This document shows positions 2,521 through 12,290 of a stretch of 64,000 nucleotides of DNA, in pieces. The stretch spans positions 4,588,001 to 4,652,000 of the forward strand of contig NZ_PDBX01000001.1 in NCBI RefSeq assembly GCF_002564105.1, in the 5' to 3' direction. Made by a program: the position numbers and the translations under genes. This stretch comes from Collimonas sp. PA-H2 (GTDB lineage Bacteria; Pseudomonadota; Gammaproteobacteria; Burkholderiales; Burkholderiaceae_D). Below the pieces are notes generated by a model. It did not search any database. It was not told the origin of the DNA and saw only the letters and a program-made list of their open reading frames with translations. The number at the start of each line of letters is the position of its first letter. Positions within the stretch are counted from its first letter, which is position 1.

Positions 2521-3008
2521 TCCGTGGATTACTGTGATTGTCGGGACTAGGCGAAACGTGCTACGCGCGCCCATTTTTGCCGATGAGAAGAATATTTTGC
2601 TAATGATAGTTAGGTGTTTTATAGCTTGACTCCGGCTGTCTTCTCGTATCGCTGAGTACATCCCCAATAATTCCCTTTGCGCTATGCATCTGAATTCGCT
2701 TTGACAAAAGTGCATTTGCCTTTTGCATTGCATTTTCAATGTCATGGCTTTTTCAGCAGGCCATTTTCTATTTTATCTAGTGCAAAAACAACAAATGCTT
2801 ACGCCTTCCTGATGGTTTCGTTAAGCATTGTTTTGTGAGGTCGCAACTTAGAAAAATCCACCTACATTATCAATTATTGAATGTATTGCTCGCGGATTTA
2901 GTGGTTCATGAAGCGATTATCTCGATTTCAACAAGTCAGATAGAGGAGCTTGTGTCGAGCAGATTTCATATATCTGAGTTGAATTGACGATTTTTGGGAG
3001 AGATAAAA
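2521..3008 (+). promoter_or_regulatory. Upstream region of the adhesin gene with its ribosome-binding site
   Basis: A 488-base AT-rich region. A strong ribosome-binding site GGGAGAG occupies 2996-3002, six bases before ATG 3009. This fixes the adhesin start and excludes the TTG at 2994 that overlaps the site. The length and AT content are typical of a silenced or regulated accessory promoter, but I cannot assign exact -35 and -10 boxes. No gene is visible here. Confidence 0.5.
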
Positions 3009-6000
3009 ATGAACAGAATCTATCGGATTATTTGGAGCAAAGTCACGGGTGACTATTGTGTAGTTGGTGAGTTGGCAAAGAGTAACGGTGCGGGAGCGAC
3101 TACCGTTTCTGGGTCAGAGCTTTCCAAGTTACCCAATACAGCAGAATCAGGTTTTCTTGCAAGGTCGATCGTTAGAGGAGGGGCAGCTATCTTCCTTGTG
3201 GGAGGCATGGTGAATATTGCATGGGCGGGCGCCATTGGTAACTGCCTCGGTGGAGGCGGTTCAGGCGTTCCAAATGCATATGGCACTACTGGTCAAGTAG
3301 TCACTACTTCTGGTCAATACACCGTTGGCAACGTTAATGTTCCCATTTCTATTCCTGTTACTGGCACTACAGCTGCAGGCACTGCTACAGGTACCATCAT
3401 CGGTACTAATCAGTGGACGACAAGCAGCTGGACAGGAGGCGAGGGAAATTGTGGGACATTAGCAACAAACACCGGTGTAATTCTTGCGGAAAGTCCTAAC
3501 GCTAGTGGTGGTCTGACAGGCAGTAAAGCATATTTATGGGTCGGTTCAAATGCGAACAACGGTGTCGGAGTCATAACACTTTACGGTCCATCAGGTATAA
3601 ATTTAAACGGTAATACAGTCGTAACAGGAACGCTTTCCACTAGCCTCCTTGCGACATTTGCTAGTGGAGCCAGCCTAGCGGGAAGTAAACTTACTAATGT
3701 CGCGGCAGGTGCCGCCCCGACTGACGGAGTAAATTTTAGCCAGTTAAGCTCGTTATCAACGTCGACATCGACTGGCTTGAGCACGACTAACAGCAACGTG
3801 ACTTCGCTGTCCACAGGTCTGAGTACGACTAATAGCAGCGTGTCATCGCTGTCGACTTCGACTTCGACGGGTATCAGCACGAATGCTAGCAAAATCGGCT
3901 CGCTGTCGACCGGCTTGAGCTCCACCAACAGCAACGTGTCGTCGCTGTCGACTTCGACCTCGACGGGTATCAGTACAGCGCAGAGTGGCGTGAATTCGTT
4001 GTCAACTGGCCTGAGTACAACAAATAGCAATGTGGGTTCGTTGTCGACTGGGCTGAGCTCCACCAACAGCAACGTGACCTCTCTGTCGACTGGTCTGAGC
4101 ACAACGAATAGCAATGTGGGTTCACTGTCGACGGGTTTGAGTACGACCAATAGCAATGTGACCTCGCTGTCGACCTCGACATCGACCGGTATCAGTACGG
4201 CACAAAGCGGCGTGAATTCGCTGTCCACTGGCCTCAGCACAACAAACAGCAATGTGACGTCGCTGTCGACTTCGACCTCGACGGGTATCAGCACAGCGCA
4301 GAGCGGCGTGAGTTCGCTGTCGACTGGCCTGAGTACAACGAATAGTAATGTGGGTTCGTTGTCGACCGGATTGAGCTCCACCAACAGCAACGTGACGTCG
4401 CTGTCGACTTCGACCTCGACCGGTATAAGCACAGCGCAGAGCGGCGTGAATTCGCTGTCTACTGGCCTGAGTACAACGAATAGCAATGTAGGTTCGTTGT
4501 CGACGGGCTTGAGCTCCACCAACAGCAACGTGACATCGCTGTCGACCTCGACTTCGACCGGCATCAGCACGAACGCCAGCAACATCGGTTCGCTGTCGAC
4601 TGGCTTGAGCACGACCAACAGCAACGTGACTTCGCTGTCAACTTCAACTTCGACCGGTATTAGCACCAACGCCAGCAACATCGGTTCGCTGTCGACAGGG
4701 CTGAGCACGACCAACAGCAATGTGACATCGCTGTCGACTTCGACCTCGACAGGTATAAGCACAGCGCAGAGCGGTGTGAATTCGCTTTCCACTGGTCTGA
4801 GTACAACGAATAGCAATGTAGGTTCGTTGTCGACCGGCTTGAGCTCCACCAACAGCAACGTGACGTCGCTGTCGACTTCGACCTCGACCGGTATCAGTAC
4901 GGCACAAAGTGGTGTGAACTCGCTGTCCACTGGTCTGAGTACAACGAATAGCAATGTGGGTTCGTTGTCGACTGGCTTGAGCTCGACCAACAGCAACGTG
5001 GCTTCGCTTTCGACCTCAACGTCGACTGGGATCAGTACGGCACAAAGCGGCGTGAATTCGCTGTCCACTGGCCTGAGCACAACGAATAGTAATGTGGGTT
5101 CGTTGTCGACTGGCTTGAGTTCCACCAATAGCAACGTGACGTCGCTGTCGACTTCGACTTCAACCGGAATCAGCACGAACGCCAGCAATATCGGTTCGTT
5201 GTCTACGGGGCTGAGCACAACCAACAGCAATGTGACGTCGTTGTCGACGTCGACCTCGACGGGTATCAGCACGGCACAAAGTGGTGTGAATTCGTTGTCC
5301 ACTGGTCTGAGTACAACGAATAGCAATGTGGGTTCACTGTCGACGGGTTTGAGCTCCACCAACAGCAACGTGACGTCGCTGTCGACTTCGACCTCGACCG
5401 GTATCAGCACAGCGCAAAGCGGCGTGAATTCGTTGTCCACTGGTCTGAGCACAACGAATAGCAATGTGGGTTCGTTGTCGACTGGCTTGAGTTCAACTAA
5501 CAGCAACGTGACATCACTGTCAACTTCGACTTCGACCGGCATCAGCACGAACGCCAGCAACATCGGTTCGTTGTCGACAGGGCTGAGCACGACCAACAGC
5601 AATGTGACTTCGCTGTCGACTTCGACCTCGACCGGTATCAGCACGGCACAAAGCGGTGTGAATTCGCTGTCCACTGGTCTGAGCACGACGAATAGCAATG
5701 TGGGTTCGCTGTCGACTGGTCTGAGTACAACGAATAGCAATGTGGGTTCATTGTCGACTGGCCTGAGCACGACTAACAGCAATGTGACCTCGTTGTCGAC
5801 TTCGACTTCGACGGGTATCAGCACGAACGCCAGCAACATCGGTTCGTTGTCCACGGGTCTGAGCACGACGAATAGCAATGTGACTTCGCTGTCGACTTCG
5901 ACCTCGACTGGCATCAGCACGGCGCAAAGCGGTGTGAATTCGCTGTCCACTGGTCTGAGTACAACGAATAGCAATGTGGGTTCGCTGTCGACAGGCTTGA

Positions 6001-9000
6001 GCACGACCAACAGCAACGTGACGTCGCTGTCGACCTCGACCTCGACTGGCATCAGTACGAACGCCAGCAACATCGGTTCGCTGTCGACTGGTCTGAGCAC
6101 GACCAACAGCAACGTGACGTCGCTGTCGACTTCGACCTCGACCGGTATCAGTACGGCGCAAAGCGGTGTGAATTCGCTGTCCACTGGTCTGAGTACAACG
6201 AATAGCAATGTGGGTTCGTTGTCGACTGGCTTGAGTTCAACTAACAGCAACGTGACCTCGCTGTCGACTTCGACCTCAACCGGCATTAGCACCAACGCCA
6301 GCAACATCGGCTCTTTGTCAACTGGCCTGAGCACAACTAACAGCAATGTGACTTCGTTGTCGACCTCGACTTCGACCGGCATCAGTACCGCGCAAAGTGG
6401 TGTGAACTCACTGTCCACTGGCCTGAGTACAACGAATAGCAATGTGGGTTCGTTGTCGACCGGCTTGAGCTCCACCAGCAGCAACGTGACGTCGCTGTCG
6501 ACTTCTACCTCGACTGGCATCAGTACGAACGCCAGCAACATCGGTTCGCTGTCGACAGGTCTGAGCACGACCAACAGCAATGTGACCTCGCTGTCGACTT
6601 CGACCTCGACAGGTATCAGCACAGCGCAGAGCGGTGTGAATTCGCTGTCCACTGGTCTGAGTACAACGAATAGCAATGTGGGCTCGTTGTCGACCGGCTT
6701 GAGCACAACCAACAGCAACGTGACTTCGCTGTCAACTTCAACTTCGACCGGTATTAGCACCAACGCCAGCAACATCGGTTCGCTGTCGACAGGGCTGAGC
6801 ACGACCAATAGTAATGTGACGTCGCTGTCGACGTCGACATCCACGGGTATCAGCACGGCACAAAGTGGCGTGAATTCGCTGTCGACTGGCTTGAGCACGA
6901 CCGACAGCAATGTGACGTCGTTGTCGACTTCGACCTCGACGGGTATCAGCACAGCGCAAAGCGGCGTGAATTCGCTGTCCACTGGCTTGAGTACAACGAA
7001 TAGCAATGTGGGTTCCTTGTCGACTGGCCTGAGCGCGATCAATAGCAACGTGACTTCGCTGTCGACTTCGACCTCGACAGGTATCAGCACAGCACAAAGC
7101 GGCGTGAACTCGCTGTCCACTGGCTTGAGTACAACGAATAGCAATGTGGGCTCGCTCTCGACTGGCTTAAGCACCACCAACAGCAACGTGACTTCGCTGT
7201 CAACTTCGACCTCGACCGGCATCAGCACCAACGCCAGCAACATCGGTTCGCTGTCCACTGGCCTGAGTACGACCAACAGTAACGTGACCTCGCTGTCGAC
7301 GTCTACTTCGACTGGCATTAGCACCAACGCCAGCAACATCGGTTCGCTGTCGACAGGGCTGAGCACGACGAACAGCAACGTGACATCGCTGTCGACCTCG
7401 ACTTCGACTGGTATCAGCACCAATGCAAGCAACATTGGTTCGCTGTCGACTGGCCTGAGCACGACCAACAGCAATGTGACGTCGTTGTCGACTTCGACCT
7501 CGACCGGCATCAGCACCAACGCCAGCAACATCGGTTCGCTGTCGACTGGCCTGAGCACGACCAATAGTAATGTGACGTCACTGTCGACGTCGACCTCCAC
7601 GGGTATCAGCACCAACGCCAGTAACATCGGTTCGCTGTCGACTGGCCTGAGTACGACCAACAGCAACGTGACATCGCTGTCGACGTCGACCTCGGCTGGT
7701 ATCAGCACCAACGCCAGTAACATCGGTTCGCTGTCGACTGGCCTGAGCACGACCAACAGTAACGTGACCTCGCTGTCGACGTCTACTTCGACTGGCATTA
7801 GTACCAACGCCAGCAACATCGGTTCGCTGTCGACAGGGCTGAGCACGACGAACAGCAACGTGACATCGCTGTCGACCTCGACTTCGACTGGTATCAGCAC
7901 CAATGCAAGTAACATTGGTTCGCTGTCGACAGGGTTGAGCACGACCAACAGCAATGTGACCTCGCTGTCGACTTCGACCTCGACAGGTATCAGCACAGCG
8001 CAGAGCGGTGTGAATTCGCTGTCCACTGGTCTGAGTACAACGAATAGCAATGTGGGTTCACTGTCGACGGGTTTGAGCTCCACCAACAGCAACGTGACGT
8101 CGCTGTCGACTTCGACCTCGACCGGTATCAGCACAGCGCAAAGCGGCGTGAATTCGTTGTCCACCGGTCTGAGCACAACGAATAGCAATGTGGGTTCGTT
8201 GTCGACTGGCTTGAGTTCAACTAACAGTAACGTGACTTCGCTGTCGACTTCGACTTCAACCGGCATCAGCACGAACGCCAGCAACATCGGTTCGCTGTCG
8301 ACAGGGCTGAGCACGACCAATAGTAATGTGACCTCGCTGTCGACTTCAACATCGACGGGTATCAGCACGGCACAAAGTGGTGTGAATTCGTTGTCCACTG
8401 GTCTGAGTACAACGAATAGCAATGTAGGTTCGTTGTCGACGGGCTTGAGCTCCACCAATAGCAACGTGACGTCGCTGTCGACCTCGACCTCGACGGGTAT
8501 CAGCACAAACGCCAGCAACATCGGTTCGTTGTCGACAGGGCTGAGCACAACGAATAGCAATGTGGGTTCGTTGTCGACTGGCTTGAGTTCAACTAATAGC
8601 AATGTGACGTCGCTATCGACCTCGACCTCAACCGGTATCAGCACCAACGCCAGCAACATCGGTTCGCTGTCGACCGGGCTGAGCACGACCAACAGCAACG
8701 TGACCTCGCTGTCGACCTCGACATCGACTGGCATCAGCACGAACGCCAGCAACATCGGCTCGCTGTCGACAGGGCTAAGTACCACCAATAGTAATGTGAC
8801 TTCGCTGTCGACTTCGACTTCGACCGGCATCAGCACGAACGCCAGCAACATCGGTTCGCTGTCGACTGGCCTGAGCACGACTAACAGCAATGTGACTTCG
8901 TTGTCGACCTCGACCTCGACCGGCATCAGTACCGCGCAAAGTGGTGTGAGCTCACTGTCCACTGGCCTGAGTACAACGAATAGCAATGTGGGTTCGTTGT

Positions 9001-11186
9001 CGACCGGCTTGAGCTCCACCAACAGCAACGTGACGTCGCTGTCGACTTCTACCTCGACTGGCATCAGCACGAACGCCAGCAACATCGGTTCGTTGTCGAC
9101 AGGGCTGAGCACGACCAATAGTAATGTGACCTCGCTGTCGACTTCAACATCGACGGGTATCAGCACGGCACAAAGTGGTGTGAATTCGTTGTCCACTGGT
9201 CTGAGTACAACGAATAGCAATGTAGGTTCGTTGTCGACGGGCTTGAACTCCACCAATAGCAACGTGACGTCGCTGTCGACCTCGACCTCGACGGGTATCA
9301 GCACAAACGCCAGCAACATCGGTTCGTTGTCGACTGGTCTGAGCACGACCAACAGCAATGTGACATCGCTGTCGACTTCGACCTCAACCGGCATCAGCAC
9401 CAACGCCAGCAACATCGGTTCGTTGTCGACCGGCTTGAGCACAACCAACAGCAACGTGACCTCACTGTCGACCTCGACTTCGACCGGTATCAGCACGAAC
9501 GCCAGCAATATTGGTTCGTTGTCGACTGGCTTGAGCACGACCAACAGCAACGTGACCTCGCTGTCGACCTCGACCTCGACCGGTATCAGTACGACACAAA
9601 GCGGCGTCAACTCACTGTCGACTGGCCTGAGTACAACGAATAGCAATGTGGGTTCGCTATCGACTGGCTTGAGCACGACCAACAGCAACGTGACGTCGCT
9701 GTCGACCTCGACTTCGACCGGCATCAGCACCAACACCAGCAACATCAGCTCGTTGTCAACAGGACTGAGCACGACCAACAACAATGTGTCGTCGCTGTCG
9801 ACAGGGGTTGCCAACTCGGTTCAATATGACAATCCAGGTCACACCAGCGTTACTTTGGGAGGTCTTGGCGCGACAACGCCAGTGACTTTTACCAATGTGG
9901 CTGCTGGTGTGAAGCCAACCGATGCTGTCAATTTCAGTCAGTTATCGTCTTTGTCTACTTCAACGTCGGCTGGCATCAATTCGCTGTCAACCGGCTTGAG
10001 CTCGACGAACAGCAACGTGACATCGCTGTCGACCTCAACGTCGACCGGGATCAGTACGGCGCAAAGCGGGGTAAACTCACTGTCAACGGGGTTGAGTACA
10101 ACCAACAGCAATGTGTCGGCGTTATCGACATCGACTTCGACGGGCTTGAGCACAGCCACAAGCGGCATCAATTCGCTGTCAACCGGCCTGAGCACCACGA
10201 ACAGTAGCGTATCGTCGCTGTCGACCTCAACTTCAAGCGGCTTGAGCGTGGCGACGAGCGGTATCAATTCCTTGTCAACCGGTGTTGCGTCAATATCAAC
10301 CGGGCTGGGGCAATTGACCACGCTCTCAACAAGCCTGGTCGGTGTCGGTTCATTGTCGACATCGTTGAAACCGCTGGCGGACGCGTCTACTGCCGCTGCC
10401 GCGAATGGTTCGACGATTGGCGCCACTACGATCGGCGGCGTCAACAGCGACGGCACGGTACAGACGCGTGGCACTAACGGCACGGTAATCAACAATGTGA
10501 CGCCGGCAACGTGCAGCACGGTGAAGGGTGTCGATGCGACCGGTTCCGGTTTGTGCGCGCAGGCCACCAAAGATGGCGCAACGGCATTCGGTTCCAACGC
10601 ACAGGCAACCGATGCCAATACCACTGCTGTGGGCTTCCGTGCCTTGGCTTCGCAGGCCGGATCGGTGGCGATCGGTAATAACGCCCAGGCGACTGGCGAT
10701 CCTACTGTCGCGATTGGTCAGAATTCGCTGGCCTCGGGGAATAACTCGGTCGCCACGGGTGCAGGGGCGCAAGCCACCGGGAACAATTCGGTGGCCTTGG
10801 GCGCCGGTTCGATAGCGGATCAAGCCAATACCGTATCTGTGGGATCTCCTGGCAGTGAGCGTCGTATCACCAACGTGGCGGCAGGTGTCAATCCAACCGA
10901 TGCCGTGAATGTCTCACAGTTGTCGGCTGTACAAAGCCAGGTTGGAGACGTGCAGCGCATAGCCTTTAGCGGAGTGGCGATGGCAGGGGCTCTGGCAGGT
11001 CTTCCACAGGTTGATAGCGGCAAGACGTTCGCATTAGGTGCGGGAATCGGTAGTTATGCTGGTTACACGGCACTGTCTATCGGCGCCAGCGCCCGCGTCA
11101 GTCAGAACGCCGTTATCAAATTCGGTGTTAGCACGACATCCGGTACGCGCACGTTGATCAATGCTGGAGTTGGCTTTTCCTGGTAG
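3009..11186 (+). CDS. Giant trimeric autotransporter adhesin (YadA family, type Vc)
   Basis: The protein has 2,725 residues. Residues 1-27 (MNRIYRIIWSKVTGDYCVVG and the following ELAKS) form the extended signal peptide region typical of large type V secreted proteins; a hydrophobic core follows and cleavage is expected near NIAWA at about residue 73. Residues 74-235 are a unique distal head with two cysteines. A neck motif (TNVAAGAAPTDGVNFSQL) leads into about 2,020 residues of SLST-type stalk repeats (residues about 247-2268). A second neck (NVAAGVKPTDAVNFSQL), more stalk, YadA-head left-handed-helix repeats (AVGFRALA, SVAIGNNAQA, NSVALGAGS; about residues 2515-2615), a third neck and a C-terminal beta-barrel anchor ending GVGFSW follow. 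Trimers would span the outer membrane and expose a very long fibre for adhesion to surfaces or to fungal or other hosts. The head-type repeats lie close to the anchor, not at the tip. A hairpin terminator follows. Confidence 0.95.
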   Translation: MNRIYRIIWSKVTGDYCVVGELAKSNGAGATTVSGSELSKLPNTAESGFLARSIVRGGAAIFLVGGMVNIAWAGAIGNCLGGGGSGVPNAYGTTGQVVTTSGQYTVGNVNVPISIPVTGTTAAGTATGTIIGTNQWTTSSWTGGEGNCGTLATNTGVILAESPNASGGLTGSKAYLWVGSNANNGVGVITLYGPSGINLNGNTVVTGTLSTSLLATFASGASLAGSKLTNVAAGAAPTDGVNFSQLSSLSTSTSTGLSTTNSNVTSLSTGLSTTNSSVSSLSTSTSTGISTNASKIGSLSTGLSSTNSNVSSLSTSTSTGISTAQSGVNSLSTGLSTTNSNVGSLSTGLSSTNSNVTSLSTGLSTTNSNVGSLSTGLSTTNSNVTSLSTSTSTGISTAQSGVNSLSTGLSTTNSNVTSLSTSTSTGISTAQSGVSSLSTGLSTTNSNVGSLSTGLSSTNSNVTSLSTSTSTGISTAQSGVNSLSTGLSTTNSNVGSLSTGLSSTNSNVTSLSTSTSTGISTNASNIGSLSTGLSTTNSNVTSLSTSTSTGISTNASNIGSLSTGLSTTNSNVTSLSTSTSTGISTAQSGVNSLSTGLSTTNSNVGSLSTGLSSTNSNVTSLSTSTSTGISTAQSGVNSLSTGLSTTNSNVGSLSTGLSSTNSNVASLSTSTSTGISTAQSGVNSLSTGLSTTNSNVGSLSTGLSSTNSNVTSLSTSTSTGISTNASNIGSLSTGLSTTNSNVTSLSTSTSTGISTAQSGVNSLSTGLSTTNSNVGSLSTGLSSTNSNVTSLSTSTSTGISTAQSGVNSLSTGLSTTNSNVGSLSTGLSSTNSNVTSLSTSTSTGISTNASNIGSLSTGLSTTNSNVTSLSTSTSTGISTAQSGVNSLSTGLSTTNSNVGSLSTGLSTTNSNVGSLSTGLSTTNSNVTSLSTSTSTGISTNASNIGSLSTGLSTTNSNVTSLSTSTSTGISTAQSGVNSLSTGLSTTNSNVGSLSTGLSTTNSNVTSLSTSTSTGISTNASNIGSLSTGLSTTNSNVTSLSTSTSTGISTAQSGVNSLSTGLSTTNSNVGSLSTGLSSTNSNVTSLSTSTSTGISTNASNIGSLSTGLSTTNSNVTSLSTSTSTGISTAQSGVNSLSTGLSTTNSNVGSLSTGLSSTSSNVTSLSTSTSTGISTNASNIGSLSTGLSTTNSNVTSLSTSTSTGISTAQSGVNSLSTGLSTTNSNVGSLSTGLSTTNSNVTSLSTSTSTGISTNASNIGSLSTGLSTTNSNVTSLSTSTSTGISTAQSGVNSLSTGLSTTDSNVTSLSTSTSTGISTAQSGVNSLSTGLSTTNSNVGSLSTGLSAINSNVTSLSTSTSTGISTAQSGVNSLSTGLSTTNSNVGSLSTGLSTTNSNVTSLSTSTSTGISTNASNIGSLSTGLSTTNSNVTSLSTSTSTGISTNASNIGSLSTGLSTTNSNVTSLSTSTSTGISTNASNIGSLSTGLSTTNSNVTSLSTSTSTGISTNASNIGSLSTGLSTTNSNVTSLSTSTSTGISTNASNIGSLSTGLSTTNSNVTSLSTSTSAGISTNASNIGSLSTGLSTTNSNVTSLSTSTSTGISTNASNIGSLSTGLSTTNSNVTSLSTSTSTGISTNASNIGSLSTGLSTTNSNVTSLSTSTSTGISTAQSGVNSLSTGLSTTNSNVGSLSTGLSSTNSNVTSLSTSTSTGISTAQSGVNSLSTGLSTTNSNVGSLSTGLSSTNSNVTSLSTSTSTGISTNASNIGSLSTGLSTTNSNVTSLSTSTSTGISTAQSGVNSLSTGLSTTNSNVGSLSTGLSSTNSNVTSLSTSTSTGISTNASNIGSLSTGLSTTNSNVGSLSTGLSSTNSNVTSLSTSTSTGISTNASNIGSLSTGLSTTNSNVTSLSTSTSTGISTNASNIGSLSTGLSTTNSNVTSLSTSTSTGISTNASNIGSLSTGLSTTNSNVTSLSTSTSTGISTAQSGVSSLSTGLSTTNSNVGSLSTGLSSTNSNVTSLSTSTSTGISTNASNIGSLSTGLSTTNSNVTSLSTSTSTGISTAQSGVNSLSTGLSTTNSNVGSLSTGLNSTNSNVTSLSTSTSTGISTNASNIGSLSTGLSTTNSNVTSLSTSTSTGISTNASNIGSLSTGLSTTNSNVTSLSTSTSTGISTNASNIGSLSTGLSTTNSNVTSLSTSTSTGISTTQSGVNSLSTGLSTTNSNVGSLSTGLSTTNSNVTSLSTSTSTGISTNTSNISSLSTGLSTTNNNVSSLSTGVANSVQYDNPGHTSVTLGGLGATTPVTFTNVAAGVKPTDAVNFSQLSSLSTSTSAGINSLSTGLSSTNSNVTSLSTSTSTGISTAQSGVNSLSTGLSTTNSNVSALSTSTSTGLSTATSGINSLSTGLSTTNSSVSSLSTSTSSGLSVATSGINSLSTGVASISTGLGQLTTLSTSLVGVGSLSTSLKPLADASTAAAANGSTIGATTIGGVNSDGTVQTRGTNGTVINNVTPATCSTVKGVDATGSGLCAQATKDGATAFGSNAQATDANTTAVGFRALASQAGSVAIGNNAQATGDPTVAIGQNSLASGNNSVATGAGAQATGNNSVALGAGSIADQANTVSVGSPGSERRITNVAAGVNPTDAVNVSQLSAVQSQVGDVQRIAFSGVAMAGALAGLPQVDSGKTFALGAGIGSYAGYTALSIGASARVSQNAVIKFGVSTTSGTRTLINAGVGFSW
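3748..9810 (+). repeat. Coding tandem array of 42-bp and 54-bp stalk repeats
   Basis: Well over one hundred in-frame units alternate between a 14-residue type (SLSTGLSTTNSNVT/G) and two 18-residue types (SLSTSTSTGISTAQSGVN and SLSTSTSTGISTNASNIG). Differences between units are mostly synonymous. The core GTCGAC recurs in most units. Longer blocks are also duplicated: 7261-7440 recurs almost unchanged at 7741-7920 (480 bases apart, five 96-bp composites), and about 8303-8530 recurs at about 9101-9330 (798 bases apart). This indicates repeated expansion by recombination within the array. Confidence 0.95.
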
Positions 11187-11305
11187 CCATAAGCAGGTAA
11201 ATCGCTTGACGCAAAGTTGCTTCTTTCTGGTCCCCGGAAGGAGTTGATGAAGTGATGAGCGTACTCATTCTCGAATGAGACATATATCCGTGTTTGCGTG
11301 TGGTT

Positions 11306-11465: not shown

Positions 11466-11858
11466 ATGAGTCAATCGGATTTGAAATCAGCCTCGGCTCT
11501 TCGAGATGATCAATGGGAAAAATTGGAGCCGTTGTTGTTAAGTAAAGGGAGAGATTTTGGAAGTCCTGAGCGTAATAACCGTCTGTTTATAGATGCATTG
11601 CTTTGGTATCTTTCAGTTGGATGTGCATGGACGGATTTGCCAGCTAAATTCGGGAAATGGAATACCGTTTTTATACGCTTGAAACGCTGGAACGAAAGTG
11701 GCTATTGGCGTGAGCTGGTCGAAGATCTGCGTGATGATTGCGAGTTATGCGCGTTAGTGCAGAAAATAGAAGATCACTGCGAGCATCGAAAAGCAATGGC
11801 AAAGAGGATGGCCGACAGGAAAATGGCGAGAGAAATTTATAAGTCATCTCATATTTGA
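11466..11858 (+). CDS. IS5 N-terminal-domain (DUF4096-like) protein without DDE domain
   Basis: A complete 130-residue protein from ATG 11466; GGAG lies about nine bases upstream. Residues about 12-85 match the N-terminal domain of IS5/IS427-group transposases: DQWEKLEPLLL, NRLFIDALLWYLSVGCAWTDLP, KWNTVFIRLKRW. Residues 86-130 are a charged tail ending AREIYKSSHI that is shared with the truncated copy at the left window edge and is not transposase-like. In IS427 elements a second frame with the DDE domain follows by frameshift; none is seen downstream here and no terminal inverted repeats were found. I therefore read it as a stand-alone, probably domesticated DNA-binding protein. Its position directly after the adhesin suggests a role linked to that locus, but this is unproven. 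A degenerate orfA is the alternative. Confidence 0.75.
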   Translation: MSQSDLKSASALRDDQWEKLEPLLLSKGRDFGSPERNNRLFIDALLWYLSVGCAWTDLPAKFGKWNTVFIRLKRWNESGYWRELVEDLRDDCELCALVQKIEDHCEHRKAMAKRMADRKMAREIYKSSHI

Positions 11859-11867
11859 CACAAGAAA

Positions 11868-12290
11868 ATGTCGAGTGAATTCCATTCGGAGTCTGCCGGT
11901 CACGGCGAAGCCCGGCGACTTGGAGTCCCGTTCCTGGTGCAACGGCACACGGGAAAATCTGCCGACTTGGCCTTGCAGTTGAATCGCCGGAGGGATTTCG
12001 CTCAGCGTCGTATCTGTCGCAAATTCAATCGGCAGCCTGGCAGCGTGGAACGCTTATATAGTAAGTCCCTACCTTTTTCCGGACAGCTGTTCAATGAATT
12101 GCTTGATCCGATAAAAGGTATCTGTGGAAATAATGCCGTTCAGCTAAGGTGGTCTCGAATCTTTTCGGCTATGTCATTCCTGTTTGTGCGGGTCGTAGTG
12201 TGGGAAAAGGTGTCAACCCTACCAGTTCTAGAAAATGAAAATGCCATTCGGTCTTACACCCAGAAAGCGCTAAACAATGAAACACAATGA
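11868..12290 (+). CDS. Doubtful hypothetical ORF
   Basis: A 140-codon frame begins 10 bases after the DUF4096-like gene. The sequence is basic, has no recognisable domain, and contains an isolated hydrophobic stretch (AMSFLFVRVVVW). No ribosome-binding site is convincing, and composition differs between its halves. It may be a chance frame across decayed DNA. I list it only because the region would otherwise be empty. Confidence 0.2.
   Translation: MSSEFHSESAGHGEARRLGVPFLVQRHTGKSADLALQLNRRRDFAQRRICRKFNRQPGSVERLYSKSLPFSGQLFNELLDPIKGICGNNAVQLRWSRIFSAMSFLFVRVVVWEKVSTLPVLENENAIRSYTQKALNNETQ

Follow-up and report, generated by a model that had tools for sequence, protein, structure and literature searches.

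A 2,014-residue array of 14- and 18-residue SLST units in a trimeric autotransporter adhesin of Collimonas sp. PA-H2: a probable stuttered coiled-coil stalk

We analysed a 64,000-nucleotide stretch, called here the window, of the genome of Collimonas sp. PA-H2 (5.95 Mb, two contigs), and in particular a plus-strand coding sequence at 3009..11186 whose 2,725-residue product carries a long array of repeats beginning with SLST. Its ATG start at 3009 is preceded by GGGAGAG (2996-3002); the TTG at 2994, listed as an alternative start, is less likely. The protein begins with an extended signal peptide region (ESPR, residues 1-38, 3009..3122) detected by Pfam PF13018 with an E-value of 3.6e-12, above the cut-off, and the whole signal region, judged by eye and not with a signal predictor, extends to about residue 73. 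Residues 2666-2725 (11004..11183) form a YadA-like membrane anchor, matched above the cut-off and over all 60 positions by PF03895 (E 7.5e-17) and by PDB entry 2lme (E 0.0038). Upstream of the anchor lie a YadA-like beta-roll head (residues about 2511-2616, 10539..10856), with the beta-roll motif at residues 2552, 2566, 2580 and 2594, and a membrane-proximal neck (residues 2618-2638, 10860..10922); head and neck were matched by PDB entries 7o23, 2yo0, 3s6l and 1p9h, among others for the head. Two further necks flank the main repeat array. The first, KLTNVAAGAAPTDGVNFSQL, occupies residues 227-246 (3687..3746). The second, FTNVAAGVKPTDAVNFSQL, belongs to a segment (residues 2262-2313, 9792..9947) that also holds a DALL-like insert (SVQYDN..SVTLGG) resembling, by eye, the DALL1 of SadA given in Table 2 of PMC4786415. 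After this segment comes another SLST stalk, a short one (residues 2314-2447, 9948..10349). Because the ESPR, the YadA anchor, the YadA-like head and the necks are all present, the product is identified from its sequence as a trimeric autotransporter adhesin (TAA), exported by type Vc secretion.

The main array runs unbroken from residue 248 to residue 2261 (3750..9791, plus strand). Its 2,014 residues divide into 129 SLST-initial units, of which 77 have 14 residues and 52 have 18. A preliminary description of this DNA had placed a stalk of about 2,000 residues, made of units of these two lengths, at 3748..9810; the length, the unit sizes and the location agree with our count, the measured bounds being 3750-9791 within the coding sequence. 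The core positions that it had named were largely recovered. In the 14-residue units, positions 2, 6, 9 and 13 are L (77/77), L (77/77), T (76/77) and V (77/77). In the 18-residue units, L at position 2 and T at position 6 are invariant (52/52 each) and I at position 10 is found in 51/52, but the Ala claimed for position 13 occurs in 22 copies only, the others having N (28) or T (2), and position 17 is either I (28) or V (24). Most columns are near-invariant, with variation largely confined to positions 8 and 14 in the 14-mer and to 13, 14 and 16-18 in the 18-mer. When the two units were aligned by eye, the 18-mer corresponded to SLST, followed by STST and by the remainder of the 14-mer. Ser and Thr make up 55% of the array (S 643, T 472, N 231, L 207, G 203, V 101, I 80, A 52, Q 23, K 1, D 1), and the two charged residues among 2,014, one K and one D, are in agreement with the nearly charge-free surface proposed earlier.

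The order of the units is partly predictable. After 18-NASNIG, one of the two main kinds of 18-mer, comes just one T-ending 14-mer (25 of 26 cases); the other kind, 18-AQSGVN, precedes a pair of 14-mers, a G-ending one and then a T-ending one (15 of 20). Most units form in this way words of 32 residues (18-NASNIG + 14) or 46 residues (18-AQSGVN + 14-G + 14-T). The words follow one another in irregular order, and the regular rhythm first attributed to the fibre was not found. No two 18-mers are adjacent in the main array, a result that none of 20,000 shuffles matched. A ban on adjacent 18-mers as a structural law was nevertheless rejected, sister stalks having long runs of 18-mers. Asn stands at core position 13 in 28 of the 52 18-mers, and 27 places fit [ILV]STN[TA]S[NS][IV]; these layers may be akin to the Asn layers that bind anions in TAA stalks. 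In two sister stalks (L024 and L054; L denotes loci and P database proteins) an 18-mer variant, [ILV]STNTS[NS][IV], was observed in 12 and 17 cases, and this motif is close to the Asn core-layer motif known from TAA stalks.

Periodicity was scored along the chain, as had been proposed with the preliminary description. The spectrum of hydrophobic residues showed a dominant peak at 3.546 residues (power 44), the next one lying at 2.0 (power 8). When the hydrophobic positions were placed at random, the 32-residue word was equalled in helical-band moment in 41 of 20,000 trials and the 46-residue word in just one of as many; single units are weak evidence when taken alone, since 28 of 364 placements (14-mer) and 108 of 816 (18-mer) did as well. 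The core assigned at positions 2/6/9/13 and 2/6/10/13/17 holds all 388 L, I and V residues of the array, and none is found among the 1,446 outer residues. At the level of the sequence, the proposed division of 14 residues into two heptads and of 18 into a hendecad plus a heptad was thus borne out. A stutter, that is a four-residue insertion, can be accommodated in a coiled coil as 7+4 = 11/3 or as 7+7+4 = 18/5 (PMC4786415). The hendecad-plus-heptad and the 18/5 stutter are thus one and the same thing.

A continuous coiled coil predicts that each distance from one SLST to the next is composed of steps of 7 and 11. We therefore compared spacings of up to 24 residues, in proteins with at least four SLST motifs, with the allowed set {7,11,14,18,21,22}. 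All 134 spacings of the window fell on this lattice, as did 369/383 in eight sister TAAs of the same genome, 1388/1410 in 25 Collimonas/Glaciimonas reading frames and 63/63 in three other loci; the overlapping loci L041 and L045 contain one and the same protein, and long identical stretches occur in two frames of L042. When distinct units were counted once, 630 of 746 were on the lattice. Three window spacings exceeded the limit of 24 (52, 32 and 27) and were excluded; those of 52, which contains the insert and a neck, and of 27, close to the end of the short second stalk, count as off-lattice. The main array itself is without any off-lattice unit.

A census of the window, the sister TAAs and the fetched loci gave 42 7-mers, 263 11-mers, 631 14-mers and 1,012 18-mers, positions 1-4 being fixed by definition as SLST was the search pattern. 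In the 11- and 18-mers, positions 5-8 read S-[TA]-S-T with at least 91% agreement at each position, and Gly occupies position 5 in 40/42 7-mers and 627/631 14-mers. The penultimate position is hydrophobic in 95-99% of the units of the four lengths. By eye, the 11-mer of the relatives is SLST, then STST, then the remainder of the 7-mer. The 7- and 11-mers are absent from the window units used as queries. Units of 11 residues account for 96 of 201 lattice units in L046 (Glaciimonas soli) and for 21 of 34 in L053, from a metagenome-assembled genome of Caulobacteraceae. Two database proteins lacking a YadA anchor domain (P0023 and P0072) have 14- and 18-residue SLST units together with charged residues; they look like phage fibre proteins, in which case this stalk type would reflect convergence or exchange.

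The transition from neck to stalk offered a further check of the register. The xQL motif of TAA necks has its Leu at position a in solved structures (Table 2 of PMC4786415), and we set the register of the first neck of the window protein accordingly. A hand count of the 41 necks having SLST within 25 residues found QLxSLST in 38; in the other three the Leu of SLST lies 11 residues further on, still on the lattice. As read from the sequences, the array carries on the canonical TAA neck register: a neck Leu at a puts the SLST Leu at d. This check is more independent than the core/surface split, which is not fully independent because the core assignment tracks hydrophobic residues.

We also searched with the 404 residues at the start of the array. 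Reovirus sigma-1 (3.5e-5) came first among the 11 PDB sequences matched at E-values up to 10, ahead of phage DNA stabilization / tail needle proteins (0.0046-0.006); in Pfam, 12 families were matched at E-values up to 1, none above the cut-off. We take reovirus sigma-1 and the phage tail needles to be trimeric coiled coils. Controls in which columns were permuted within units, keeping composition and repetition, matched two PDB sequences of other kinds in one run and 0, 3, 0 and 1 Pfam families in four runs. We consider it probable, from the sequence evidence, that the main array is a stuttered three-stranded coiled-coil stalk of a TAA.

Several observations weigh against this reading. The core positions were assigned by their hydrophobic residues, and the core/surface split is to that extent built in. 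Only 966 of 1403 spacings were on the lattice in 147 database proteins, many of them near-copies of one another; the off-lattice values were 15 (the commonest, 141 cases), 19, 23 and others, with Pandoraea and Snodgrassella frequent, and 15 is a known right-handed coiled-coil period. Loci and database proteins had moreover been chosen by similarity to the 14- and 18-residue units and are not a blind sample. The PDB matches are weak, 3.5e-5 at best, and include GldL and one fusion protein, which we do not regard as coiled coils, while helical names (MscS_porin at E 0.0014, COG6_N) also turned up among the Pfam matches of one permuted control. Ser, Thr, Asn and Gly, poor helix formers, make up 1,391 of the 1,446 outer residues (96%). 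An AlphaFold2 monomer model of the neck and first stalk units, computed with a shallow and repetitive alignment of 25 sequences, had a mean predicted local distance difference test score (pLDDT) of 43.9; its sole helix was five residues long, at the neck, and the stalk had none. As fold matches of such a low-confidence model are meaningless, it was kept out of fold searches. No solved structure of an SLST stalk was encountered in the PDB searches.

We next computed the supercoil that the units would impose. Taking 3.63 residues per turn for a straight helix (PMC4786415), the 14-mer gives +3.68 degrees per residue, that is a left-handed coil with a pitch of about 147 Å, and the 18-mer (18/5 = 3.60) gives +0.83 degrees per residue, also left-handed, with a pitch of 653 Å. 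The pitch would be 260 Å for the 32-residue word and 210 Å for the 46-residue word, and the full array, if fully helical, would make about 13 left-handed turns along about 294-302 nm. The preliminary description had the fibre switching between left- and right-handed segments, and a true alternation at every 14/18 step could be argued from the fact that the 18-mer is divisible as 11+7 and that an isolated hendecad (11/3 = 3.67, above 3.63) is slightly right-handed, at -0.99 degrees per residue. However, the hendecad contributes only about 11 degrees of right-handed twist per unit against 26 left-handed degrees from its heptad, the 18-mer as a whole is left-handed, and stutters can be delocalised to 18/5 (PMC4786415). 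Since both units are left-handed by calculation, the claim of switching was not borne out, and we regard alternation as very unlikely. The fibre would rather be an underwound left-handed rope that relaxes repeatedly. The comparison of mean twist covered the sequences that had 20 lattice spacings or more, 48 out of 240, of which 20 are database proteins. The lattice units averaged from 3.50 to 3.62 residues per turn, with 3.547 (window) to 3.592 in this genome and up to 3.617 in Collimonas loci.

Other structures were weighed for the array. It might be beta structure, either a 14-residue left-handed parallel beta-roll of the YadA type or another beta fibre; TAA beta-roll heads also have repeats of about 14 residues, the Ser/Thr-rich sequence is not helix-prone, the AlphaFold2 stalk is without helix and the second hydrophobic period is 2.0. 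The head of BpaC is made of beta-roll repeats (PMC9543794), and S-[LVI]-[AT]-[IL]-G has been given as a beta-roll motif (PMC7688925). Yet a loosened form of the motif, [ST][LVI][AT][ILT]G, occurs nowhere in the array, although it is present in the C-terminal head (four times) and in the insert (once), the helical period of 3.546 dominates, and relatives mix units of 7, 11 and 18 residues with those of 14, which a 14-residue coil cannot accommodate. Beta structure thus appears improbable. We give similarly little credit to a largely disordered, possibly glycosylated Ser/Thr tether in which the hydrophobic positions would be a relic of an ancestral coiled coil. The high Ser and Thr content, with its poor helix formers, and the low pLDDT would fit such a tether, and O-glycosylation has been proposed for the repeats of BCAM2418 (PMC7142374). 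The DNA of the repeats argues otherwise. The same peptide is written in many DNA words (SLSTGLSTTNSNVT has 32 copies with 31 distinct DNA sequences), pairwise synonymous divergence (dS) is about 1.15 for 14-mers and 0.72 for 18-mers, and the ratio of nonsynonymous to synonymous divergence (dN/dS) is 0.045 and 0.217, respectively, pointing to selection on the peptide, although gene conversion would violate the assumptions of dN/dS. The low ratios, the near-invariant core of the 129 units and the strict lattice of the main array indicate structural constraint, even if gene conversion could inflate the conservation. Finally, the minus strand is open from 3581 to 9814 (2,077 residues), and ARAGORN called two tRNA-Ser genes on that strand, at 7207-7303 and 7687-7783, inside the array. 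That either represents a real gene is hardly conceivable, as the signal, necks and anchor are all on the plus-strand frame. Random synonymous recoding with the codon usage of 11 other open reading frames of the window left a mean of 2.7 antisense stops and an open frame in 5% of 300 trials, and recoding with the codon usage of the array itself left a mean of 1.7 stops and an open frame in 17% of 300. The openness of the antisense frame is close to what random synonymous codons produce, and we rejected it as a by-product of the repeats; the tRNA calls were rejected likewise, from their position alone.

In the coiled-coil model that we favour, three chains would form one continuous parallel alpha-helical coiled coil, about 300 nm long if fully helical, in which core layers of Leu, Ile and Val would be interspersed with layers of Thr, Ala or Asn beneath a neutral exterior of Ser, Thr, Asn and Gly. 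Two heptads would make the base unit, and insertion of STST after SLST would convert it into the 18-residue unit. The STST would act as a stutter that eases the left-handed supercoil, giving an underwound rope (mean 3.546 residues per turn) while keeping the core in register. We infer that such a stalk could serve adhesion as a neutral spacer, presenting the N-terminal head some 300 nm from the cell.

This head (residues 73-226, 3225..3686) has relatives in two Collimonas humicola loci, where the N-terminal part is 52% (L034, residues 1-257) and 46% (L031, residues 1-243) identical. No match was found for residues 40-262 in the protein database at E 0.001, with 7,988 candidates scored, and an AlphaFold2 model of the head with a three-row alignment was uninformative (pLDDT 33.7). 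Fungal or mineral surfaces, as targets of the head in a Collimonas-like soil bacterium, are guesses. Two profile matches that pass their cut-offs for the whole protein and for no single stretch, Pfam ANG-1 (84.4 bits against a cut-off of 28.5) and NCBIfam Cbp1_fam_LP (131.7 against 90), were attributed to composition and repetition and not to homology, as were sub-threshold matches to ClfA, SMC and similar families. Just upstream of the adhesin gene, 1126-2520 encodes a regulator with winged-helix (Trans_reg_C) and TPR-like parts, 85% identical to its counterpart beside the C. humicola relative L031; it possibly regulates the adhesin gene. Directly downstream, two neighbouring frames at 11466-12290 are probably a transposase in pieces: the frame 11466-11858 matches the IS4/5-type transposase family PF13340, and the second has no Pfam match.

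The genome contains 11 YadA-anchor genes, with open frames of up to 4,012 residues. SLST arrays were found in nine of them, L023 and L026 having only short ones, and none was seen in L025 (full 732-residue frame checked) or L029. Three SLST-bearing members (2451, 2418 and 4012 residues) stand in tandem near C1:1.435-1.463 Mb. The 3' part and end of the adhesin gene (9651-11202, 1,552 bases) are 97.1% identical to a paralogue with another head (L022, C1 about 200.9-206.0 kb), which suggests, at the DNA level, that the anchor end was recently converted or duplicated and the heads swapped. The longest lattice run differs among relatives: 129 units in the window, 84 in C. humicola L031, 40 in L022 and 140 in L032, values possibly understated for the relatives if draft assemblies collapsed their repeats. 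Local growth of the array was not supported. DNA similarity between words is nearly flat with distance (0.86 for neighbours versus 0.84 at 30 words or more) and no two words are identical, the longest exact DNA repeat of the array being 153 bases. A 78-residue stalk query at 1e-10 matched 13 of 294 genomes of the family, namely 12 of the 15 listed genomes of the same genus (its own included) and one of another genus. The closest named copies are from Collimonas and Glaciimonas, both Oxalobacteraceae, Collimonas being soil bacteria.

Changes of periodicity are known from other stalks. Alvarez, in 2010, reportedly described a right-to-left supercoil transition in a TAA, and YadA-type stalks have a strongly right-handed segment with a 15/4 period. 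That TAA and the window stalk both mix periodicities, but no 15-residue spacing occurs in the window array. NadA3, which has two undecads (PMC6191539), and the 18/5 coiled coils (PMC4786415) share with it the principle that a four-residue insertion yields a hendecad or 18/5; unlike NadA3, the window array repeats one tetrapeptide insert 52 times. The earlier statement that no such stalk had been described proved too strong. SLST-initial serine-rich repeats have been reported in the TAA passenger domain of BoaA and BoaB (PMC2955633), and BCAM2418 of Burkholderia cenocepacia is described as having repeats that carry an SLST signature and "vary in size" (PMC7142374). Like BoaA and BoaB as they are described, the window protein combines a YadA anchor, AIG beta-roll heads and SLST serine-rich repeats, but those proteins have 1,535-1,766 residues and "several" repeats (PMC2955633). 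The text covered of the two articles states neither unit lengths nor, for BoaA and BoaB, a coiled-coil register or, for BCAM2418, a lattice. The matches listed, many of which are nameless, included none under the name of Boa, B. mallei or B. pseudomallei. Among sequences at hand, the Burkholderia cepacia TAA P0053 has tandem 14-residue units of the GLSTGLSSTNSTVA type and B. paludis locus L051 has SLST units of 18, 11, 14 and 7 residues, but, unlike the window array, both arrays are short. With 129 SLST-initial units in its passenger, the window protein has an SLST-repeat (Boa-like) stalk, and is an unusually long member of a stalk type known from Burkholderia adhesins; its predicted length of about 300 nm is comparable to that of AtaA fibres, about 260 nm (PMC13082670). 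In a limited literature collection, no TAA stalk description was found with a 14/18 (7/11) reading or in which one unit out of two or three has a stutter. The heptad/hendecad structural reading of SLST repeats may thus be new.

More tentatively, and with somewhat less than even confidence, we propose that the repeats follow a code of two choices, each SLST unit being independently with or without a second heptad and with or without the STST stutter, which yields 7, 11, 14 or 18 residues. Sister and genus adhesins would vary the mix and so tune the predicted supercoil towards straight, keeping the core and the neck register, and length and twist would evolve by cassette shuffling. The literature collection yielded no TAA stalk described in such terms. 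TAA stalks can be very long fibres, and how they handle supercoil strain over hundreds of nanometres is rarely readable from sequence. Here the stutter is one recurrent tetrapeptide, and orthologues and paralogues provide a natural series of stutter densities, which allows a direct test of whether the fibre's pitch and stiffness are governed by stutter density. SLST repeats, which the articles consulted describe just as varying in number or size, moreover gain a simple reading rule.

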